Below are positions 51,052 through 62,401 of a stretch of 64,000 nt of DNA, in pieces; position 1 is the first letter of the stretch; every line of letters begins with the position of its first letter. Under the pieces are notes generated by a model. The model had not been told where the DNA came from and did no database searches. It saw only the letters and a program-made list of their open reading frames with translations. Both the position numbers and the translations under genes were made by a program. The stretch comes from an uncultured Eubacteriales bacterium (GTDB taxonomy: Bacteria; Bacillota; Clostridia; Christensenellales; CALVMC01): the NCBI GenBank assembly GCA_949296455.1, contig CASFOZ010000001.1, forward strand, positions 62,001 to 126,000. Direction: 5' to 3'.

Positions 51052-53322
51052 TTATTCGATAATAGTCATTCCGTCTACCCCGTAAATCTTGATATTGTCG
51101 CCTTTTAAAGTAAGTACGGCAACTCCGCCTGCGGAAGTAATAACTCCGTCTTCATCACATTTCCAGGTTATAATTTTAACCTCTTCGATTGCGCCTTTAT
51201 CGTTCTTTTGAGTTATGAGATAATCCATAATTTTAACATACTCGCCTGTCGAAAGCCTGAATGCTCCGCCAAGTCTTATTTTGGGAACATTTGAGTAAGC
51301 AGTTTCATACTCTCCGAACTCACCTTCGAAACCGACCGGCACGAGTTTTTCAGTATACCGAACATTACCGAAAGTTATATTTTCAATCGATATTGCCATT
51401 TTCTGATAACCTGCAAAGAGTATAGAAAGTATCTTATCGAAGGAATCCTTGGTTGGATCGGAAGCGCCGAACAAGGTATACAAGGCTTCTTTGAAATCCT
51501 TATTTATTTCGGTATAATCTATTACTCCGTCGTTATCGGAATCGATAAAATTAATATTTCCCCAAACGGTAGTAATCGTTTTAAGAGTATTGAACAGAAT
51601 ATCTTTATAATCGGACTGTTTAGCGTTCTTCTTTTCGTAAGAACGGAAAGCGGCAACGATTGCATAATCAGTAAGGTCGTATATATTTATCTCGGCTTTT
51701 GTTTTAATTTCACCGTCAGTTGTATAAAATTCGATTATTGCCTCATTATTTTCGATATTGATATCCTTTGCGTTGAAATAAAGGTAAGAGTCAATATTGC
51801 CTTCCGAATCTTTAAGAACGAATTCGATAAGACCTTTACCGTTTGTGCCGCTGTTTTTAAGGTGAGTCATAACAGCGTCAACTATACCTTCCCATAAAAC
51901 TGCGCATTTTTCTTTATACTCGGCGTCGGTCATACCGTCGGTTTTTACGACTTTATTCTGTGGGTCGAAAGCGTATTCCAAACCTGCCATTACTGCTCCC
52001 ATAACATCTATATCTACTTTTAACTCGTAAGTATAAGTTTCCGCAGTTTCTATTTCGCTCGAACTATTGTATCTCTTGACTGTGCCGTTCATAGTAAATG
52101 ACAGCATATTGTTCGATACGGCCATAGTTCCCGAATAAGCGTCTATTAAATTGGTAATTTTAGATTGTATTTCGGTATCGACGCTTTGGTTAAAGGAAGC
52201 GTTGATAGCAATTTTATCGAAAAGAAGTTTAGCGGAACCTTTTGTGAAATGGAATTTAATTAATTCCTTGCAGCTGAAAATTTCATCGGTATATTCGTCT
52301 TTTCCCATAGGAACGCCTAAAACTATATCGAAAGTTTCGGCGCTGTTAATAAATTCAACCGCAAGATTTTGAAGGCTGTTGTCAGAGCCTATTTTGGCAG
52401 AAAGAACAACATCTACTCCTTTACATGAAGGAAGATTATTGTTGGAAAGAGCGTCCCACTGACCTTCTCCGACCTGTATATAAATTCCTGCTTCCTGGAA
52501 GTATTCTTTTAAACTTGAATAAACATTTTTTCCGTCCACGGTAGGTGAAATGAACCCTAAGAGAGCGCCTCCCATAGTTTTAACCATATTCATAACGCTT
52601 TCGAGGTCTATCGTGATTTTGACGTCTTTCGAGCCGTCGGAATTAGTTGTTATGTAAGGATTTACAGTACTGTTCGGGTCTGCTCCGACCGGGTCTTTAC
52701 AGAAACCTGCAATGGCTGCAATTATAACATCGATATCGAGAGAACTGGTATCGTTTGTGCTTTCGGTTGTCGCCGTATTATCGGTAACCAAATTTGCAAT
52801 AGCGGCAACGGAAGCGAAATCGATTCTGCCGGTTATATAAGCCTGGTCGCCGAAAATTGTACCTGTGATACTCTGGTCGTTTTTAAGAATAAGGAACAAA
52901 TCGCTTTCGTTTTCGTCATCGTTATAATAAGCGCCGAATACGAGTTTGTTATCGGTAAGAGAATTATTTACGATTTCGAACATTAAAGAAGTATTCTGCC
53001 CGCCTGTTATATCGATATTACCTTTAAGCGTAACAGTATAGTTTTCCTTAGTTTCGGTTGCGTCCGTAGGGTTATTTGTCCAGTTTGCCGAAAAATCGAT
53101 ATTTATTACCTTTTCTTTAATTTGAGAAAACCCGTTGGTAAATTCCGTAACGGCAGAACCTAAAATCAAGTTCAATGCTTCCGTTTTTGCGTTTAACCAG
53201 CTCGTAGTTGTTTGATCGCCATCATCGGGTTCTTCCGGCGGGTTACAAGCAATTAACGAAAAAGCAAGAACGCAGACAAGCACTACTGAAATAAGTATTT
53301 TCCAAAATTTAAACTTTTTCAT
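51052..53322 (-). CDS. Large lipoprotein with EF-hand-like loop (paralogue 1)
   Basis: The 756-residue precursor has a lipoprotein signal with lipobox SLIAC near residue 26, then an Asp/Glu/Pro linker and a long domain not recognised. Residues about 594-605 read DSDNDGVIDYTE, a canonical 12-residue EF-hand calcium loop (D1, D3, D5, G6, I8, E12), flanked by helical segments. The C-terminal 100 residues are beta-rich. ATG 53322 follows GGAGG. The neighbour at 53702-55891 is a close paralogue, with conserved signal, linker and blocks throughout. Its function is unknown; a surface calcium-binding role is inferred. Confidence 0.8.
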   Translation of the reverse strand: MKKFKFWKILISVVLVCVLAFSLIACNPPEEPDDGDQTTTSWLNAKTEALNLILGSAVTEFTNGFSQIKEKVINIDFSANWTNNPTDATETKENYTVTLKGNIDITGGQNTSLMFEIVNNSLTDNKLVFGAYYNDDENESDLFLILKNDQSITGTIFGDQAYITGRIDFASVAAIANLVTDNTATTESTNDTSSLDIDVIIAAIAGFCKDPVGADPNSTVNPYITTNSDGSKDVKITIDLESVMNMVKTMGGALLGFISPTVDGKNVYSSLKEYFQEAGIYIQVGEGQWDALSNNNLPSCKGVDVVLSAKIGSDNSLQNLAVEFINSAETFDIVLGVPMGKDEYTDEIFSCKELIKFHFTKGSAKLLFDKIAINASFNQSVDTEIQSKITNLIDAYSGTMAVSNNMLSFTMNGTVKRYNSSSEIETAETYTYELKVDIDVMGAVMAGLEYAFDPQNKVVKTDGMTDAEYKEKCAVLWEGIVDAVMTHLKNSGTNGKGLIEFVLKDSEGNIDSYLYFNAKDINIENNEAIIEFYTTDGEIKTKAEINIYDLTDYAIVAAFRSYEKKNAKQSDYKDILFNTLKTITTVWGNINFIDSDNDGVIDYTEINKDFKEALYTLFGASDPTKDSFDKILSILFAGYQKMAISIENITFGNVRYTEKLVPVGFEGEFGEYETAYSNVPKIRLGGAFRLSTGEYVKIMDYLITQKNDKGAIEEVKIITWKCDEDGVITSAGGVAVLTLKGDNIKIYGVDGMTIIE

Positions 53323-53395
53323 AATTCCTCCCATTTAAGGTATTTTTTATATTAAAATTTATAAAAAATTTATTTTTTAAATTTTCTACTCATTA

Positions 53396-53424
53396 ATTTT
53401 AACACAAGTAAAAGTTCAATGCAA
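53396..53424 (-). promoter_or_regulatory. Promoter of lipoprotein paralogue 1
   Basis: TTGCAT (53419-53424) and TAAAAT (53396-53401) have a 17-base spacer on the minus strand. The same box pair, TTGCAA and TAAAAT with the same spacing, precedes paralogue 2. Confidence 0.6.
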
Positions 53425-53650
53425 GACTTTTTCTTTTTTTTATTAATATATATATGGAAAATATTGTAAATAGAATATCGGCTATTTCAATTAGATTCAG
53501 ATAATATATGGAAATTAAAGAAAGATAACTTTTAATTTTTAACGGATAATTAAATTTCGTTTTTCGATTTAAAGTTTTAATGGAAATAAATTATAGTAAA
53601 TTCCCCTTGTTGCGTTGCGAATTCTTTATTTGAATGATATTCAAAATCAT

Positions 53651-53680
53651 AAAAAAACGGAACCTTTCGGTTCCGTTTTT
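53651..53680 (-). terminator. Terminator of second large lipoprotein gene
   Basis: CGGAACC (53658-53664) pairs with GGTTCCG (53669-53675) around TTTC, with a T run on the minus strand from A residues 53651-53657. The stem is the same as at 51012-51030, so the duplication included the terminator. Confidence 0.9.
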
Positions 53681-53701
53681 AAAACATTGTAAATTTGTCA
53701 A

Positions 53702-55891
53702 TTAAGCAATCGGATTTCCATTGACATCTTTGATTGTGATATCAGTACCTGTGATATCGAATACAACGCATCCGCCGTTAAGTACTACATTGCCTTCTGC
53801 ATCGCAAGTCCAAGCGATAACCTTGGCTTTTGTAATTTTGTTGGAAGCGTCTCTTTGAGTTACGAGATAATCCAATACTTTAAAGGTTTTGCTGTCAACT
53901 TCGACTTTTGCGCCGACCTGAATTTCGGATACTGCAAAAGAATCTGTCGAAAGTACTACTCCGCCCGTAAAGCCTTCAAGGTCGGAAGGAGTGGTCATGA
54001 ACTGAACATCGCCGAACGAGAAGGATTCGATGGAAACAGACATTTTGTCTTTACCGCCGAAGATTGTATCGATAACTACATCGATAGAAGCCTTTGTTCC
54101 TGCTGTCGGATTGAATATAGCATATAAACCGTCAACAAAGGTTTTGTAAACTTCGGTATATTCTACAACGCCGTTATCGTCACTGTCAACAAAGTTAACA
54201 TTGCCCCAAAGACCGGTAAGTGCTTTTAATGTGTTGAATATAACTACTTTATAATCCAAAGTTGTAGTAGCTTTGTCTTCGCTTGCAAAAGCAGCGGTTG
54301 CAGCATATTCGATTACATCGTAAAGGTTCAAAGTCGATTTAACTTTTTGTCCTTCTGCGGTTGTTGTGTATAATACGATTGCTGCTTTTCTGTTTGTGAT
54401 ATTGATAGAGGCTGCGTCAAAACAGAAGTAGGTATTGGTAGTAGTTCCGTTACCCATCCAGTATTCTATTTTAGCTTTTCCGTTGCCGTTATCGTAAAGA
54501 TAATCAATAACTTCGTCAACTATTTCCATAGTGAGTTCATAGCAAGCTGCATCGTATTGAGCGTCGGTCATGTCGCCTTTAACGACTTTGTTTTTCATAC
54601 CGTATTCGAGACCTGCCCAAACAGCGCCTATAACATCGGCATCGATATTGAATTTGTATTCGTAAGTATCTGTAGCGTCAGCATAATTGCCGTCATATCT
54701 TTTAACTTCACCCGAGAAGCTGAATGCAAGCGCATTGCTTGAAGATATATCGCCGAACTCTGTGATTTTGCCGTCGATAGTACTTGCAATATTAGCGTCT
54801 TTCGAGGTTCCTACATTAAGAGTATCAACAGAAAGTTTTGCGCTGCCTGCTGCAAAATTAAAGTTGAATAATTCTTTGTAAGTATTTCCGGAAGGTACTC
54901 CGAGAACGAAATCGAAAGCAGTGCTGTTTTTGAATTCAACTGCTAAATTCTGTAAATTGCTGCTTGCATCGATTTTAGCCGAAAGAACAACTTCTACTCC
55001 TGTGCATGCAGGAAGATTGTTGTTGGAAAGAGGCTGCCATTCGCTGCCTACTTTGGTGTAAAGACCTGCAGCTGCGAAATATTCGCTTAAAGACTCGTAA
55101 TCGTTGGTTTTACCGTCGCTGCTCGGTGAAATGAATCCTAAGAGCGCACCGCCCATGGTTTTAACCATAGTCATAACGCTTCCAAGGTCGATTGTAATGC
55201 TTACGGTTTTAGAACCGTCAGAGTTTGCAGTAATATAAGGATTAACACCTTCGGTAGGCTCACCTGCTCCTACGGGATCTTTACAGAAACCTGCAACAGC
55301 CGCAATTATAACATCGAGATCGAGAGAGCTCATATCAATGGTGCTTTCGGTTGTTGAATCATCGGTGAAAAGGTTAACGATAGAAGCAACGGACGGGAAA
55401 GATATTCTTCCTGTAAGATAATCTTCACTTCCGAAAATGTTTCCGGTAAGTTTTGCATCGTTTTTGAGTTTAAGGAAGATATCGGAACCGTCTTTGTAAT
55501 AAGCACCGAATACGAGTTTGTCTTCGGTAAGGGAATTGTTTACAACTTCAACCATTAAAGCGGTATCGGTTCCACCCGTGATATCGATATTACCTTTAAC
55601 GCTGAAAGTGAAGTTCTCTGTTGCAGCACTTGCGCCGTTCGGAGTATTTGTCCATGACGCAGCAAGGTCAAGGCTTATTACTTTGGTTGTAATGTCGCCG
55701 AATCCGCTGACCTTAGTTACAGCAGAACCTAAAATTAAGTTCAATGCTTCCGTTTTTGCGTTTAACCAGCTCGTAGTTTTTTGATCGTCATCACCGGGTT
55801 CTTCCGGCGGGTTACAAGCAATTAACGAAAAAGCAAGAACACATACTAACAATACTGAAATCAGTATTTTCCAAAATTTAAACTTTTTCAT
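53702..55891 (-). CDS. Large lipoprotein with EF-hand-like loop (paralogue 2)
   Basis: The 729-residue precursor shares with paralogue 1 the signal peptide (lipobox SLIAC), the NPPEEP linker and conserved blocks such as GNIDITGG, VIIAAVAGFCKDPVGA and VKTMGGALLGFISP. Residues about 569-580 read DSDDNGVVEYTE, again an EF-hand-like loop (Asn at position 5). ATG 55891 follows GGAGG; the longer frame to 55933 reads through upstream leader. No family is recognised. The tandem pair suggests a duplicated secreted or surface function. Confidence 0.8.
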   Translation of the reverse strand: MKKFKFWKILISVLLVCVLAFSLIACNPPEEPGDDDQKTTSWLNAKTEALNLILGSAVTKVSGFGDITTKVISLDLAASWTNTPNGASAATENFTFSVKGNIDITGGTDTALMVEVVNNSLTEDKLVFGAYYKDGSDIFLKLKNDAKLTGNIFGSEDYLTGRISFPSVASIVNLFTDDSTTESTIDMSSLDLDVIIAAVAGFCKDPVGAGEPTEGVNPYITANSDGSKTVSITIDLGSVMTMVKTMGGALLGFISPSSDGKTNDYESLSEYFAAAGLYTKVGSEWQPLSNNNLPACTGVEVVLSAKIDASSNLQNLAVEFKNSTAFDFVLGVPSGNTYKELFNFNFAAGSAKLSVDTLNVGTSKDANIASTIDGKITEFGDISSSNALAFSFSGEVKRYDGNYADATDTYEYKFNIDADVIGAVWAGLEYGMKNKVVKGDMTDAQYDAACYELTMEIVDEVIDYLYDNGNGKAKIEYWMGNGTTTNTYFCFDAASINITNRKAAIVLYTTTAEGQKVKSTLNLYDVIEYAATAAFASEDKATTTLDYKVVIFNTLKALTGLWGNVNFVDSDDNGVVEYTEVYKTFVDGLYAIFNPTAGTKASIDVVIDTIFGGKDKMSVSIESFSFGDVQFMTTPSDLEGFTGGVVLSTDSFAVSEIQVGAKVEVDSKTFKVLDYLVTQRDASNKITKAKVIAWTCDAEGNVVLNGGCVVFDITGTDITIKDVNGNPIA

Positions 55892-55923
55892 AATTCCTCC
55901 CATTTGTAATTTAATACGAATAA

Positions 55924-55952
55924 ATTTTAACATATATGTTTTTTACTTGCAA
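55924..55952 (-). promoter_or_regulatory. Promoter of lipoprotein paralogue 2
   Basis: TTGCAA (55947-55952) and TAAAAT (55924-55929) are spaced by 17 bases, 33 bases upstream of the start. Confidence 0.65.
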
Positions 55953-56300: not shown

Positions 56301-57803
56301 TTAAAGGGAAAGGGTTTTTCCGGTTTTTGCGTCCTGATACATAATCCAATATCCTTCTTTTTCAGGCTGGTTTTTGTCTGCGGGAAACCAGCTGCAAAGG
56401 GAAGAAATATCGGTAGGCGGAATTATCGATTTATTTGCAGGTATTCCGTAGCAGATATAATCGGGATTTTTCCCCACCACCCCTACAACATAGTACTCAT
56501 TGTCCTTAAACTCGATTTTAACCCACTTGGAATCGGGAATATTTTTTTCGAGAATTTCTTCTTTGGGATAGCAAACGAACAGTTCGTCTATCTGCGGTTT
56601 TACTGCGTCGTAAAAGGTTTTATCCGAACCGATAAGTCCGCTTTTTTTGGCTTTTAAAAATATATCGGCGTTTGCTTCTATGCTCTCTGCCACGCTTAAT
56701 CCGTTATCCTTTTTTTGATTGTCTTCCATATCAATGTTACCTCCGCTGTCTTTACTGAATAAATTTTCCTGTCTTGTCATAGGCTCGGCTTTAAAAAACT
56801 CGTTGACCGCATTTCTGTATTCTTTGTCCTTTGCGTTTATAAGATAGGCTCTTTCGAGTTCGATTTTTTTTATTATGTTGGTAATTTTCAAGTCAGTGTC
56901 TAAATACTCGTTATAACAATAAGTTTTACCGCTATTTGAAAAATCTTTTTCCCCGCATTCCGTATCGGCTTGATTTTCTTTATTTTGATTTTCGTTATAG
57001 TCGGAAGTATTCGATTCATTGTTCTCGTGTATTTTTTCAGTTTTGTTTGCAGCTTCTTCGCTTATATTGTCTTGGAATCCGCTTTCCTTAAAACCGATTT
57101 CGTTTTCCTTAATATCACTGTCGTATTTATCACTGCCATTATTAAAGGTGAAGTCTGCTGTCGGACTTTCTTTTTCCTCTTCAAATTCCTCTTTGAATTG
57201 ATTTAGAAAACCGTCGTTCTCTTCCCTTTCCCTATCGGTATTAATTTCCTTATCTGTATTAAATTCATTATCGGTATTAAATTCACTATCGATATTAAGT
57301 TCCCTATCGGTATTAAGTTCCCTATCTGTATTAAGTTCCCTATCTGTATTAAGTTCACTGTTTTCAGCAAGGTATGTTGATTCTTTACTTTCAAAAGGAA
57401 TATCCGTGCCGACGGTTTCATTTTCCATGATAGTTTTTTCAACCGAAAAAGATTCTGTCTGCTCTTTCGGTGAAATTGCGCTTTGACTTTTAAGATAAAG
57501 TTCGGTAATTTTTGCCGTCCTGTACGGATTTCCTTTTCTGCCTAAGCAACCGTAATAAACGGGACTTGTGTCGGTATCGAATAAAACGCATTCAAGACCT
57601 TCTTTTAAAATATCTTCTTTAACGGATATTTGTTTGTTTTTATCGGAAGAAAAAATCCGCCCGTCGTTTATTACCGAAAAACTTTCATAATCTTTATCGC
57701 AGCAAACGGTGAGCCTGCCGTTAAAACTTCTGATTTTTCCCGTTCCGCATTCTTTTCCGTCCTTAACGGTAAAAAATTTAATAGTTTTTTCTGTAAGTTT
57801 CAT
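56301..57803 (-). CDS. Unrecognised 500-residue protein with hexapeptide repeats
   Basis: Residues 1-115 are beta-rich and cysteine-containing, about 149-190 are seven tandem hexapeptides (mostly ELNTDR), and 190-370 are low-complexity, Glu/Asn/Asp-rich. Residues about 385-500 form a second folded domain (IPDSKWVKIEFKDNEYYVVG ... YICYGIPA ... SWFPADK). There is no signal peptide or membrane segment, so it is probably cytoplasmic. The two folded ends joined by a disordered acidic linker suggest a scaffold or adaptor. No family is recognised and no function is proposed. It starts behind AGAGGTG and is divergent from the hyd operon. Confidence 0.7.
   Translation of the reverse strand: MKLTEKTIKFFTVKDGKECGTGKIRSFNGRLTVCCDKDYESFSVINDGRIFSSDKNKQISVKEDILKEGLECVLFDTDTSPVYYGCLGRKGNPYRTAKITELYLKSQSAISPKEQTESFSVEKTIMENETVGTDIPFESKESTYLAENSELNTDRELNTDRELNTDRELNIDSEFNTDNEFNTDKEINTDREREENDGFLNQFKEEFEEEKESPTADFTFNNGSDKYDSDIKENEIGFKESGFQDNISEEAANKTEKIHENNESNTSDYNENQNKENQADTECGEKDFSNSGKTYCYNEYLDTDLKITNIIKKIELERAYLINAKDKEYRNAVNEFFKAEPMTRQENLFSKDSGGNIDMEDNQKKDNGLSVAESIEANADIFLKAKKSGLIGSDKTFYDAVKPQIDELFVCYPKEEILEKNIPDSKWVKIEFKDNEYYVVGVVGKNPDYICYGIPANKSIIPPTDISSLCSWFPADKNQPEKEGYWIMYQDAKTGKTLSL
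57232..57357 (-). repeat. Seven tandem 18-base repeats
   Basis: Seven exact-length 18-base units encode the hexapeptide E-L-N-T-D-R with variants. The leftmost units differ more, while 57304-57357 are nearly identical, as expected from recent slippage. Confidence 0.9.
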
Positions 57804-57970: not shown

Positions 57971-57999
57971 TTGAATTGTTTATTACATTGTGTTAATAT
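57971..57999 (+). promoter_or_regulatory. Promoter of the hyd maturation operon
   Basis: TTGAAT (57971-57976) and TAATAT (57994-57999) have a 17-base spacer, placing the transcription start near 58006. That is exactly where the structured leader begins. Confidence 0.6.
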
Positions 58000-58005
58000 A
58001 TTTAT

Positions 58006-58183
58006 AAGGAACCGACGGGACGGAAAATCCTACCCGAAGGAATCTTTAAACTTTTAAGCGACTTAAAGTTTTGCTTAAACAAATTAAACATACCGAGTCT
58101 TAGGGTCTTCCGAGGACAAAGAGAGTTTAAATCAAAGAATATTGACTTTGTTTTATTCCTTTGTCTTTGACAAAGGTTTTTTA
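58006..58183 (+). promoter_or_regulatory. Structured leader (candidate riboswitch or attenuator) of the hyd operon
   Basis: About 178 bases of leader precede the first gene. Visible elements: a GC-rich 5' block (58008-58036) with AACCGACGGGACGG and TACCCG; an AT-rich hairpin 58049-58070 (AACTTTTAAG, loop CGA, CTTAAAGTT); and a 3' block 58091-58121 with ACCGAGTCTTAGGGTCTTCC. GGAA (58008-58011) can pair with TTCC (58108-58111), closing the 5' and 3' blocks. The element ends in the terminator at 58158-58182. GACAAAG (58115-58121) can pair with the terminator's 5' arm CTTTGTC (58159-58165), so pairing would block termination. This is the logic of a transcriptional riboswitch. It was not matched to any class known to me. 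Confidence 0.55.
58158..58182 (+). terminator. Intrinsic terminator in the hyd leader
   Basis: CCTTTGTC (58158-58165) pairs perfectly with GACAAAGG (58169-58176) around a TTT loop and runs into six T residues, 14 bases before the first gene start. Its place inside the operon leader implies regulated read-through. Confidence 0.85.
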
Positions 58184-58196
58184 TTTAAGGTGGAAT

Positions 58197-58442
58197 ATGG
58201 AAAACCGCATAGCAGTAATAGGAATAATAGTTGAAAATCAGGATATGACAACTAAACTCAACGAAATTCTTCACGAATACGGAAGTTATATAATCGGAAG
58301 AATGGGCGTACCCTTCCGTGAGAAAGGAATAAACATAATCAGCATAGCGATAAACGCACCGCACGAGATAATCAGCGCACTGTCGGGAAAAATCGGAAGA
58401 CTTGACGGAGTCAGCGCAACGACAGCCTATTCAAAAGTATGA
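58197..58442 (+). CDS. TM1266-family hydrogenase-system regulator
   Basis: The 81-residue protein matches the TM1266-like family (putative iron-only hydrogenase system regulator), with an ACT/NikR-C-like fold: RIAVIGIIVENQD, GSYIIGRMGVPFREKGINIISI and GKIGRLDGV. It is the usual companion of hydE, hydG and hydF. ATG 58197 follows AAGGTGG; an upstream frame to 58161 includes terminator sequence and is not coding. The stop overlaps the hydE start (ATGA). Confidence 0.9.
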   Translation: MENRIAVIGIIVENQDMTTKLNEILHEYGSYIIGRMGVPFREKGINIISIAINAPHEIISALSGKIGRLDGVSATTAYSKV

Positions 58443-59491
58443 AAAAGGATTTTATAGAAAGGATTATAGACAGCGCCCGAAAGGGTATCGTTCCGAAAGC
58501 CGAAGATTTAAAATTAATTTTCGACTGCGACGATAAGGCTTTAAGTCCTTTATTCGAAAGGGCGAGAGAAGCTGCATTTTCTGTATATTCCGACAATGTT
58601 TTTGTAAGGGGGCTTATTGAAATAACATCCTTTTGCAAAAACGACTGTTTATACTGCGGACTCAGACGCTCTAACAAGGAAGCGCAAAGGTACCGCATTA
58701 ACGAAGAAGAGATTTTCGAAATTTGCAAAAAAGGCTATGAAAACGGGTTCAGAACCTTTGTTCTGCAAGGGGGCGAAGACTGTTATTTCGACGATAAAAT
58801 ACTCGTTCCTCTGATAGAAAAAATAAAATCGGATTTTACGAATGTTGCCGTTACGCTTTCCTTAGGAGAAAGGACAAAGGAAAGTTATAAAAATCTGTTT
58901 CTTGCGGGGGCAGACAGATATCTTTTAAGGCACGAAACGGCAGACAGCGAACATTATAAAAAACTGCACCCGAAAGATATGAGTTACGAAAACAGAAAAA
59001 GGTGTCTTTACGATTTAAAGGAAATAGGATATCAGACGGGCTGCGGACTTATGGTAGGCTCGCCCTATCAGACCGAAGAAAGTCTTTATAAAGACCTTGC
59101 TTTCATAAAAGAGTTTGACCCTGAAATGGTAGGAATAGGACCTTTTATTCCCCACAAAAAGACTCCTTTTAAGGACTTTGAAAAAGGCTCTGTCAAAAAA
59201 ACCCTTATAATCCTTGCCCTTGTCAGAATATTGGTACCGAAAGTACTTCTTCCTGCGACAACAGCTTTAAAAACTGCGGACGGCAACGGACTTGTGAAAG
59301 GAATACTTTCGGGCGCAAATGTTATAATGCCTAATATAACGCCCGACGAGTACAGAACAAAATACGAAATATACGACGGGAAAACTATAAGCGATAAAAA
59401 GTGCATTAAAAAATATCTTGAAAATATCGATAAAGAACTTAATAAAATAGGACGGCGGCTTAATATGAGCCGTGGCGATTATAAAAAATAA
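58439..59491 (+). CDS. hydE: [FeFe]-hydrogenase maturase HydE
   Basis: The 350-residue radical SAM enzyme has the cluster-binding CKNDCLYC near residue 65 (CxxxCxxC), FVLQGGED and the SAM region. HydE helps build the H-cluster diiron site, probably its dithiomethylamine precursor. The conserved GQTGCGLMVG-like YQTGCGLMVGSPYQT stretch fits HydE rather than biotin synthase. It is co-transcribed with hydG. Confidence 0.96.
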   Translation: MKKDFIERIIDSARKGIVPKAEDLKLIFDCDDKALSPLFERAREAAFSVYSDNVFVRGLIEITSFCKNDCLYCGLRRSNKEAQRYRINEEEIFEICKKGYENGFRTFVLQGGEDCYFDDKILVPLIEKIKSDFTNVAVTLSLGERTKESYKNLFLAGADRYLLRHETADSEHYKKLHPKDMSYENRKRCLYDLKEIGYQTGCGLMVGSPYQTEESLYKDLAFIKEFDPEMVGIGPFIPHKKTPFKDFEKGSVKKTLIILALVRILVPKVLLPATTALKTADGNGLVKGILSGANVIMPNITPDEYRTKYEIYDGKTISDKKCIKKYLENIDKELNKIGRRLNMSRGDYKK

Positions 59492-59534
59492 AAGCCTGAA
59501 AGGAAAATTTTGACCTTAAAGGCGGGAGGGATAT

Positions 59535-60953
59535 ATGTATAATGTAAAGTCAATGAAAGCGGAAGAGTTTATCGACCATAACGAGATAGAGGAAACCCTT
59601 TCCTACGCAGAAGCAAACAAGAACAATTTAAAACTTATAGACAGTCTTATTGAAAAAGCGAAAGAAAGAAAAGGACTCAGTCACAGAGAAGCCTCCGTTC
59701 TTCTTGCCTGCGAAAACAAGGAAAGACTCGAAGAAATCTACGCTTTGGCAAGACAGATAAAAGAAGATTTTTACGGGAACAGAATTGTAATGTTTGCCCC
59801 CCTTTATCTTTCCAACTACTGTGTAAACGGCTGCGTATACTGTCCCTATCACGGACAGAACAAACATATACCGAGAAAAAAACTGACTCAGGAAGATATC
59901 GTAAAGGAAGTAACCGCCCTTCAAGATATGGGACACAAAAGACTTGCGATAGAATCGGGAGAAGACCCTGTACATAATCCCATAGAATACATACTCGAAA
60001 GCATAAAGACAATATATTCGATAAAACATAAAAACGGCGCCATACGAAGGGTGAATGTAAATATTGCGGCAACCACGGTAGAAAATTATAAAAAACTGAA
60101 AGACGCAGGAATTGGAACATATATACTCTTTCAGGAAACATATCACAAGGAAAGTTACGAAAAACTGCACCCGTGGGGACCTAAGCACGATTACTGCTAT
60201 CATACCGAAGCTATGGACAGAGCGATGCAAGGCGGAATAGACGATGTGGGACTCGGGGTACTTTTCGGACTGGAACTTTACAAGTACGAATTTGCGGGAC
60301 TTTTAATGCACGCAGAACATTTGGAAGCGGTATTCGGAGTAGGTCCGCACACGATAAGCGTGCCGAGAATAAAGAAAGCGGACGATATCAATCCTACCGA
60401 TTTCGATAACGGAATAGACGACGAAACATTTGCTAAAATCTGCGCTCTTATAAGGATAAGCGTTCCTTATACTGGTATGATAATTTCTACAAGGGAAAGC
60501 AAGGCGGTGCGGGAAAAAGTTCTGAGCCTTGGAATATCGCAAATAAGCGGCGGTTCGAAAACAAGCGTCGGCGGATACTATGAAGAGGAAGAAGAAGACG
60601 AAAGTTCGGAACAGTTCGACGTGAGCGATAAAAGAACCCTTGACGAAGTGGTATGCTGGCTTATGGAACTTGGATATATTCCGAGTTTCTGCACGGCTTG
60701 TTACAGAGAAGGCAGAACGGGCGACAGATTTATGACGCTGCTTAAAAACAAGCAGATACTTAACTGTTGTCACCCTAACGCCCTTATGACGCTTAAAGAA
60801 TTTCTGTGCGACTACGCTTCGGAAAAGACGGTTAAAATAGGTAACGAACTTATAAAGCGGGAAGTTGAAAAAATTCCGAACGAAACAGTAAAAGCCAAAG
60901 CCAAGGAAAATCTTGAAAAAATCGAGAAAGGTATCCGTGATTTCAGATTCTGA
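59535..60953 (+). CDS. hydG: [FeFe]-hydrogenase maturase HydG
   Basis: The 472-residue radical SAM tyrosine lyase makes CO and cyanide for the H-cluster. The N-terminal cluster site is CVNGCVYC near residue 95. The C-terminal auxiliary-cluster site is FCTACYREGRTGDRFM with further Cys after about 20 residues (NCCHPNAL). ATG 59535 follows GGGAGG. Confidence 0.97.
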   Translation: MYNVKSMKAEEFIDHNEIEETLSYAEANKNNLKLIDSLIEKAKERKGLSHREASVLLACENKERLEEIYALARQIKEDFYGNRIVMFAPLYLSNYCVNGCVYCPYHGQNKHIPRKKLTQEDIVKEVTALQDMGHKRLAIESGEDPVHNPIEYILESIKTIYSIKHKNGAIRRVNVNIAATTVENYKKLKDAGIGTYILFQETYHKESYEKLHPWGPKHDYCYHTEAMDRAMQGGIDDVGLGVLFGLELYKYEFAGLLMHAEHLEAVFGVGPHTISVPRIKKADDINPTDFDNGIDDETFAKICALIRISVPYTGMIISTRESKAVREKVLSLGISQISGGSKTSVGGYYEEEEEDESSEQFDVSDKRTLDEVVCWLMELGYIPSFCTACYREGRTGDRFMTLLKNKQILNCCHPNALMTLKEFLCDYASEKTVKIGNELIKREVEKIPNETVKAKAKENLEKIEKGIRDFRF

Positions 60954-61198: not shown

Positions 61199-62401
61199 AT
61201 GAGTTTAAACGACACGCCGTTATCGGAAAGAGTGCATATAGCCTTTTTCGGAATGCGAAATGCCGGAAAATCATCACTTGTAAACGCAGTTACAAGACAG
61301 AATGTTTCCGTTGTTTCTGAAAAAAAGGGAACGACGACAGACCCTGTTTACAAAAATATGGAACTTTTGCCGTTAGGTCCCGTTACGATTATTGACACTC
61401 CGGGTTTTGACGACGACGAAGAAACGCTCGGTAAACTCAGAGTGGAAAAAGCCGTTCAGACTTTAAGAAAAACCGATATAGCCGTTCTCGTAAAAGACTC
61501 CTCTCTGCCCTTTTCCGAAACAGAAAAAAAACTCGTTTCGGAATTTGAAAAATTGAATATCCCCTACATAATCGCACAGAACAAGTGCGACCTTATACAA
61601 CATATTGACAGCCAAAACGATACCGTTTTTGTCAGCGCAAAAACCGGTAAAGGAATAACCGAATTAAAAGAAAAAATAGCAAGTTTAAACTTGTTGAAAA
61701 CACAGTCTCGAAAACTGCTCGATGGCATAGCAAATAAAGGCGACACTTTAATTCTTGTAGTTCCGATAGACAAAGCCGCTCCGAAAGGAAGACTTATTCT
61801 TCCCCAACAGCAGGTAATAAGGGAAGCTCTCGACTCAGGCTGCGTTGCGGTTATAACACGGGACGAAGAACTCGAACAGACTCTTAAAACAGTTAACAAC
61901 CCTTCCTTTGTTATATGCGACAGTCAGGTTTTTTCATATACCGCTTCCGTAGTGCCCGAAAGCATACCGCTTACTTCCTTTTCCATACTTATGGCACGAT
62001 ATAAAGGATTTTTAGATACTGCGCTGAAAGGTGTAACAAAAATTTCAAAGCTTACCGAAAAAAACAAGGTTGTAATTTCCGAAGGCTGTACCCATCACCG
62101 TCAGTGCGGCGATATAGGAACGGTTAAGATACCTGCGCTTATTGAAAAATTCACAAAGGTTCGCCCGAAGTACAAATTTACTTCTGGACAGGATTTTTCC
62201 GAAGAGATTATAAAAGACGCCGACCTTGTTATACACTGCGGCGGTTGTATGCTTAACGAAAGAGAAATGCAGTTCAGACAGAATATCGCTTTAAACTGCG
62301 GCGTTCCTTTCACCAATTACGGAACGGCTATTTCCTATATGTCGGGAATACTCAAAAGAAGTATAAAGGATATACCTGAATATAGAAATTTCGATATATA
62401 G
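61199..62401 (+). CDS. hydF: [FeFe]-hydrogenase maturase HydF
   Basis: The 400-residue scaffold GTPase has GMRNAGKSS (P-loop) near residue 18, DTPGFDD, NKCD and SAKTG. A C-terminal iron-sulfur site follows: CTHHRQCG and, about 50 residues later, IHCGGC. It receives the H-cluster precursor and transfers it to the hydrogenase. A hydA structural gene is not in this window. ATG 61199 follows AAGGTGG. Confidence 0.96.
   Translation: MSLNDTPLSERVHIAFFGMRNAGKSSLVNAVTRQNVSVVSEKKGTTTDPVYKNMELLPLGPVTIIDTPGFDDDEETLGKLRVEKAVQTLRKTDIAVLVKDSSLPFSETEKKLVSEFEKLNIPYIIAQNKCDLIQHIDSQNDTVFVSAKTGKGITELKEKIASLNLLKTQSRKLLDGIANKGDTLILVVPIDKAAPKGRLILPQQQVIREALDSGCVAVITRDEELEQTLKTVNNPSFVICDSQVFSYTASVVPESIPLTSFSILMARYKGFLDTALKGVTKISKLTEKNKVVISEGCTHHRQCGDIGTVKIPALIEKFTKVRPKYKFTSGQDFSEEIIKDADLVIHCGGCMLNEREMQFRQNIALNCGVPFTNYGTAISYMSGILKRSIKDIPEYRNFDI

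Follow-up and report, generated by a model that had tools for sequence, protein, structure and literature searches.

In riboswitches and other leaders that attenuate transcription, the 3' strand of a hairpin competes with an intrinsic terminator, and the device exists in attenuation and in ribosome-binding-site forms. The RAT hairpins of the LicT, SacY and GlcT systems have two internal loops, are close to twofold symmetric, overlap a terminator and are bound by a small oligomeric protein, and in these systems protein binding gives antitermination, the ON outcome. NikR joins a ribbon-helix-helix DNA-binding half to a C-terminal regulatory domain. The TM1266 family carries an annotation that already guesses 'hydrogenase system regulator', and no mechanism for it was found in the open-access literature searched; to our knowledge, TM1266 is not known as an RNA binder.

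The hairpin described here, found at a hydrogenase-maturation operon of an uncultured Eubacteriales bacterium and linked to TM1266, resembles the attenuating leaders in the competition of its 3' strand with an intrinsic terminator and in occurring in both forms, but differs from them in lacking an Rfam family at gathering score. With the RAT hairpins it shares the two internal loops, the near-twofold symmetry and the terminator overlap; unlike them, its geometry would imply an OFF element, its sequence is another one, and its candidate partner is TM1266 rather than a CAT-PRD protein. No CAT/PRD antiterminator gene is under control of the leader, the downstream genes being TM1266, hydE, hydG and hydF. 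The TM1266 protein encoded here is a full member of its family (TIGR03959, PF21699; structure 2NZC) and consists of a single domain that folds like the regulatory domain of NikR (AlphaFold model pLDDT 96.4; best Foldseek match 2NZC, followed by NikR at a TM-score of about 0.86), but at 81 aa it is without the DNA-binding half that NikR possesses. The present comparison connects TM1266 with one particular RNA and with target genes other than those for hydrogenase. As devices, attenuators and hairpins at ribosome-binding sites are known; the RNA class and its link with TM1266 appear to be new, and no prior open-access report was found that joins an RNA motif or riboswitch with HydG, the H-cluster, hydrogenase maturation or TM1266.

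Promoter, terminator and antiterminator of the leader

The DNA analysed is a stretch of 64,000 nucleotides (the window) from a genome of 1.38 Mb. A plain DNA search for relatives of the stretch found the sister genome alone, and this one same-genus relative was used for comparison. The operon lies on the forward strand in the order TM1266-hydE-hydG-hydF, with every gene above its own NCBIfam cut-off: the TM1266-family gene at 58197-58442 (81 aa; TIGR03959, 111 bits against a cut-off of 60.8), hydE at 58439-59491 (TIGR03956, 480.9 bits), hydG at 59535-60953 (TIGR03955, 927 bits) and hydF at 61199-62401 (TIGR03918, 507 bits). Divergent from the operon, at 56301-57803 on the minus strand, is an open reading frame of 500 aa with imperfect DRELNT-type short repeats, and at 51052-55933, also on the minus strand, two adjacent and similar lipoprotein-like open reading frames of 760 and 743 aa look like tandem paralogues.

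The promoter that the first-pass annotation had placed at 57971-57999 on the forward strand was recovered in the sequence, with a -35 box TTGAAT (57971-57976), a 17-bp spacer and a -10 box TAATAT (57994-57999) that is extended by an upstream TG at 57991-57992 (TGtTAATAT, 57991-57999), and the sister genome carries the identical sequence. A promoter scan is blank at 57971-57999 because only 8 of the 12 consensus bases match. From the position of these boxes transcription would start near 58006. The intrinsic terminator announced 14 bases before the first gene is located at 58158-58182 (+), an 8-bp stem followed by six U residues (CCUUUGUCUUUGACAAAGG-UUUUUU), and 14 nt separate its end at 58182 from the TM1266 ATG at 58197. 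Pairing of GACAAAG (58115-58121) with the 5' arm of this terminator had also been proposed, and the strand around the heptamer, which is the 3' strand of the second of two hairpin copies in the leader, pairs with that arm at -14.6 kcal/mol to form an antiterminator (58108-58168, +) that is part of the leader's minimum-energy fold. The leader as a whole folds with a z of -2.96 relative to shuffles, 1 of 200 of which is as good. Like a transcription attenuator, it combines an intrinsic terminator with an antiterminator, the two being mutually exclusive. The earlier description of it as a leader of this kind is supported and holds, with strong covariation, for many genomes.

The architecture first proposed for the remainder of the leader has to be redrawn. 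A closing pair between 58008-58011 and 58108-58111, joining the two GC blocks of the leader as the ends of one structure, is broken at two of its four positions in the sister genome and is ruled out; the pairs supported by comparison fall inside each GC block and not across the two, and the blocks are instead separate tandem copies of one hairpin, between which lies an AT-rich spacer with a hairpin of its own (58047-58086, +).

At gathering scores Rfam 15 has no family in the window other than a tRNA elsewhere, and none in a leader at the named loci, and permissive Rfam scans of the order, class and leader loci gave only sub-threshold matches in the leaders. The initial impression that the leader falls outside familiar riboswitch classes agrees with the absence of any Rfam family at gathering score in any leader tested. 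The best of the sub-threshold matches, the ribosomal protein L10 leader (RF00557) at 58075-58191, attains 32.7 bits (E 7e-4) but stays below its gathering score of 44; the downstream gene is TM1266 and not rplJ, the sister genome reaches only 30.5 bits (E 0.09), and the match is absent from all other leaders tested. Score and gene context rule out this identity, the probability of which is negligible.

The hairpin family and its copies in the window

TM1266 genes are present in 229 of 396 genomes of the order, and 130 of their upstream regions were gathered. A shared signature, C-C-U-G-A-[4 nt]-A-A-A-G-...-C-U-G-A-[4 nt complementary]-A-A-A-G-G, lies immediately 3' of a -10 box and 5' of a terminator and occurs in 41 of the 130 regions, against 0.23 in dinucleotide shuffles (pattern scan). 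The corresponding hairpin of about 30-42 nt, CUGA-[P2]-AAAG-[P3 loop]-CUGA-[P2']-AAAGG, is nearly symmetric about P2, a central helix of 4 bp with the same CUGA/AAAG internal loop on either side, so that it looks alike after a turn of 180 degrees.

Covariation across relatives had been named beforehand as a test of the leader, and it is present. In a first alignment of 34 sequences, from which the window genus was left out, 8 of the 10 pairs show both-sided changes and the covariation score is 0.516, compared with 0.160 when shuffled; pairs that were not selected on are included, among them the closing pair of P3, which was seen as A-U, G-C, C-G and U-A. After model search the set grew to 77 sequences, in which all ten pairs of the hairpin change on both sides, the covariation score is 0.618 against 0.174 shuffled, and 93.8% of cells are paired against at most 50.3% with the partner slid; these counts lean toward the model to which this alignment, and not that of 34 sequences, was fitted. 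Two models were used, R1 and the broader R2, both built without any sequence of the window genus, and in named genomes all 40 model matches have the same orientation as the gene. Matches to R2 at 24-30 bits include false positives, and one R1 match at 30.9 bits is also false. A match inside relA, the sole good-scoring one at the order level in a genome without TM1266, was judged to be due to chance, as were matches in three further genomes.

The window has three copies of the hairpin, all on the forward strand: two in the leader, at 58006-58046 and 58087-58127, and a stronger one, absent from the first-pass annotation, at the Shine-Dalgarno of hydG (59490-59527). The two best R2 matches in the leader region coincide exactly with the two GC blocks. 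Copy 1 (8.9 bits, E 0.018 in the 251-base leader region) comprises CCGA at 58012-58015, a P2 of CGGG (58016-58019) with CCCG (58033-58036), and AAGG at 58037-58040, and its inner loop departs from the consensus. Copy 2 (12.2 bits, E 0.0018 in the same 251 bases) comprises CCGA at 58093-58096, a P2 of GUCU (58097-58100) with GGAC (58114-58117), AAAG at 58118-58121 and the inner elements UAGG (58101-58104) and CCGA (58110-58113); it fits the signature as a regular expression, a match also seen in 32 of 5000 dinucleotide-shuffled versions of this leader. Under R2 the leader of the sister genome gives 18.1 bits (E 2.8e-5) for copy 2 and 9.0 bits for copy 1. The third copy, between hydE and hydG, scores 33.5 bits under R1 (E 3.2e-8 window-wide), has a P1 of GCCU/AGGC and a P2 of AAGG/CCUU, adjoins the Shine-Dalgarno GGGAGG at 59524-59529 and is also carried by the sister genome (18.1 bits). 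Covarying P1, P2 and P3 with CUGA and AAAG on both strands are found in the window, and the 3' strand either pairs with the terminator arm, in leaders, or abuts the ribosome-binding site, at hydG. Leader copies together with the hydG site also occur in Sporobacter termitidis DSM 10068, which has two leader copies, in Mobilitalea sibirica DSM 26468 and in Lutispora saccharofermentans.

The leader copies score weakly in a whole-window scan, in which R2 ranks them only 6th and 25th and R1 does not report them, as would be expected if they were chance matches and the leader no more than an ordinary terminator or readthrough device before TM1266. Against this explanation, which we regard as very improbable, stand the presence of two copies at a conserved place, the score of the sister leader, the retention of the antiterminator pairing and the window-wide significance of the hydG copy. 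The assignment of these weak leader copies draws on their location, their tandem arrangement, the sister genome and the terminator pairing combined.

Several leaders of the order are built differently. In the TM1266 leaders of some other families, 16 loci in all (minus-strand loci reversed), a second highly conserved element, AUCGAUGA..UUCGGAGAGUAAG, precedes the terminator and is possibly a divergent sister class. In RNAalifold, Type B leaders show hardly any covariation, and we make no claim that they share the structure. The TM1266 leaders of one further family (seven loci) are longer and G-rich, with recurring AAGAUGAGGAAGGAGG-like tails.

Co-occurrence with TM1266 and the genes under the motif

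In a class sample of 226 genomes, with the motif called by R1 at E <=0.005 and TM1266 by its cut-off, the motif is present in 31 genomes, every one of which has TM1266, and in none of the 86 genomes that are TM1266-negative. Divided by HydG, the motif occurs in 23 of 115 genomes with both genes, 0 of 28 with HydG alone, 8 of 25 with TM1266 alone and 0 of 58 with neither. With genomes treated as independent, motif and TM1266 are linked within HydG-positive genomes (p = 0.004), and a link between motif and HydG is absent within TM1266-positive genomes (p = 0.19). The motif tracks TM1266 and not HydG, a co-occurrence that is partly built in, most copies preceding TM1266 itself. At the level of the phylum TM1266 is found in 20 of 22 genomes with a motif match, and of the two exceptions one has its match 5' of yebC and the other a weak match. 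In some genomes TM1266 is present but lies elsewhere, and the motif stands at hydG (two genomes), hydE (two), aspA (two), an importer (two) or an ECF component (three).

The genes under the motif include hydrogenase-type targets in several arrangements (TM1266-hydE/G/F, hydG alone, hydE alone, TM1266-hydF and aspA-hydF), importers of three unrelated types (an ABC system with an SsuA/NMT1-like binding protein, a FecCD-type ABC system and an ECF substrate component) and a nifH-like operon. In one genome two sites carry the motif, hydG and an SsuA-type transporter operon, and another has the hairpin 5' of both hydE-hydF and the nifH-like operon. At three loci the hairpin, at about position 1501, sits at the ribosome-binding site of the ECF substrate component, with TM1266 elsewhere in the genome, and in Loigolactobacillus rennini DSM 20253 the leader precedes TM1266 and a FecCD-type transporter. 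A second TM1266 gene (L221:757-1005, 90 bits) is present in the window genome directly 5' of ctsR-like and clpC-like genes (named by eye), and no copy of the hairpin was found at it. A search for TM1266 in viral contigs gave no match.

These distributions bear on what the hairpin may recognise. A metabolite tied to H-cluster assembly, suggested at the outset as the ligand, is not indicated, the motif being present in HydG-less genomes and tracking the TM1266 gene, and for the same reasons the likelihood of a protein-binding attenuator is no lower than that of a riboswitch. A riboswitch would bind a small molecule or metal directly in the hairpin, with TM1266 as an independent protein that senses this compound or is related to its uptake, and the regulon would share the compound. 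Conserved unpaired GA and AA beside covarying helices, together with the overlap with the expression platform, are hallmarks of riboswitches, non-homologous importers under one element make a typical riboswitch regulon, and tandem hairpin copies occur. But a direct riboswitch needs no protein, and TM1266 is present in every genome with a well-supported motif, including unlinked cases and those without HydG, while an oligomeric protein would account no less well for the pseudo-twofold symmetry and for the variability of P2; we consider the riboswitch the main rival, possible but rather unlikely. It is improbable in our estimation that the hairpin's partner is another RNA-binding protein, or a general factor, with TM1266 co-occurring as part of the same metabolic module. 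Co-occurrence alone shows no contact, it is true, and the closest structural relatives of TM1266 are metal and amino-acid sensing domains rather than RNA binders, but no other gene lies directly under the motif as often as TM1266, which is still present when unlinked, whereas HydG does not predict the motif.

A proposed switch and its candidate regulator

Across 49 leaders the 3' strand of the hairpin pairs with the 5' arm of its own terminator at a mean of -11.6 kcal/mol, compared with -9.1 kcal/mol (sd 0.38) when arms of other leaders are permuted in, and none of 2000 permutations is as low as the own-arm mean. Where the hairpin stands at hydG, its 3' strand contains the ribosome-binding site or adjoins it. 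The preference for its own terminator arm suggests that closing the hairpin frees the terminator, and from the two geometries together stabilisation of the hairpin is predicted to repress. A factor that holds the hairpin closed would block the antiterminator, the terminator would form and the operon would be off, and at hydG the closed hairpin would hide the ribosome-binding site. OFF regulation is what we infer from sequence for both leaders and hydG; regulation could equally be ON, given another outcome of binding.

Less certainly, the factor may be TM1266, the first protein of the operon, which would then act in trans as an effector-responsive repressor of its own operon, of hydG and of other targets. 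A regulator without a DNA-binding domain and an RNA of near-twofold symmetry together suggest an RNA-binding repressor. The best reading of these comparisons is that TM1266 is an RNA-binding regulator of the hairpin, a proposition to which we give about even weight. The broader proposal, which we hold with slightly less than even confidence, is that the TM1266 family are RNA-binding repressors, NikR-type sensors that have lost DNA binding and would instead clamp a near-twofold-symmetric hairpin and, on one cofactor or metal signal, control termination and translation at genes for hydrogenase maturation, importers and nitrogenase-like proteins in the Clostridia and in other classes of their phylum.

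The regulon, unexpected in joining the three unrelated kinds of importer with aspA and the nifH-like operon, points to one common signal. TM1266, a widespread protein named merely as a putative regulator, gains a concrete and testable candidate target and mechanism, and a strongly covarying RNA class is added that Rfam does not contain. For anaerobes, the element at the operon leader and at the hydG ribosome-binding site, in the window and in several cultured strains, offers a handle on the control of H-cluster assembly.
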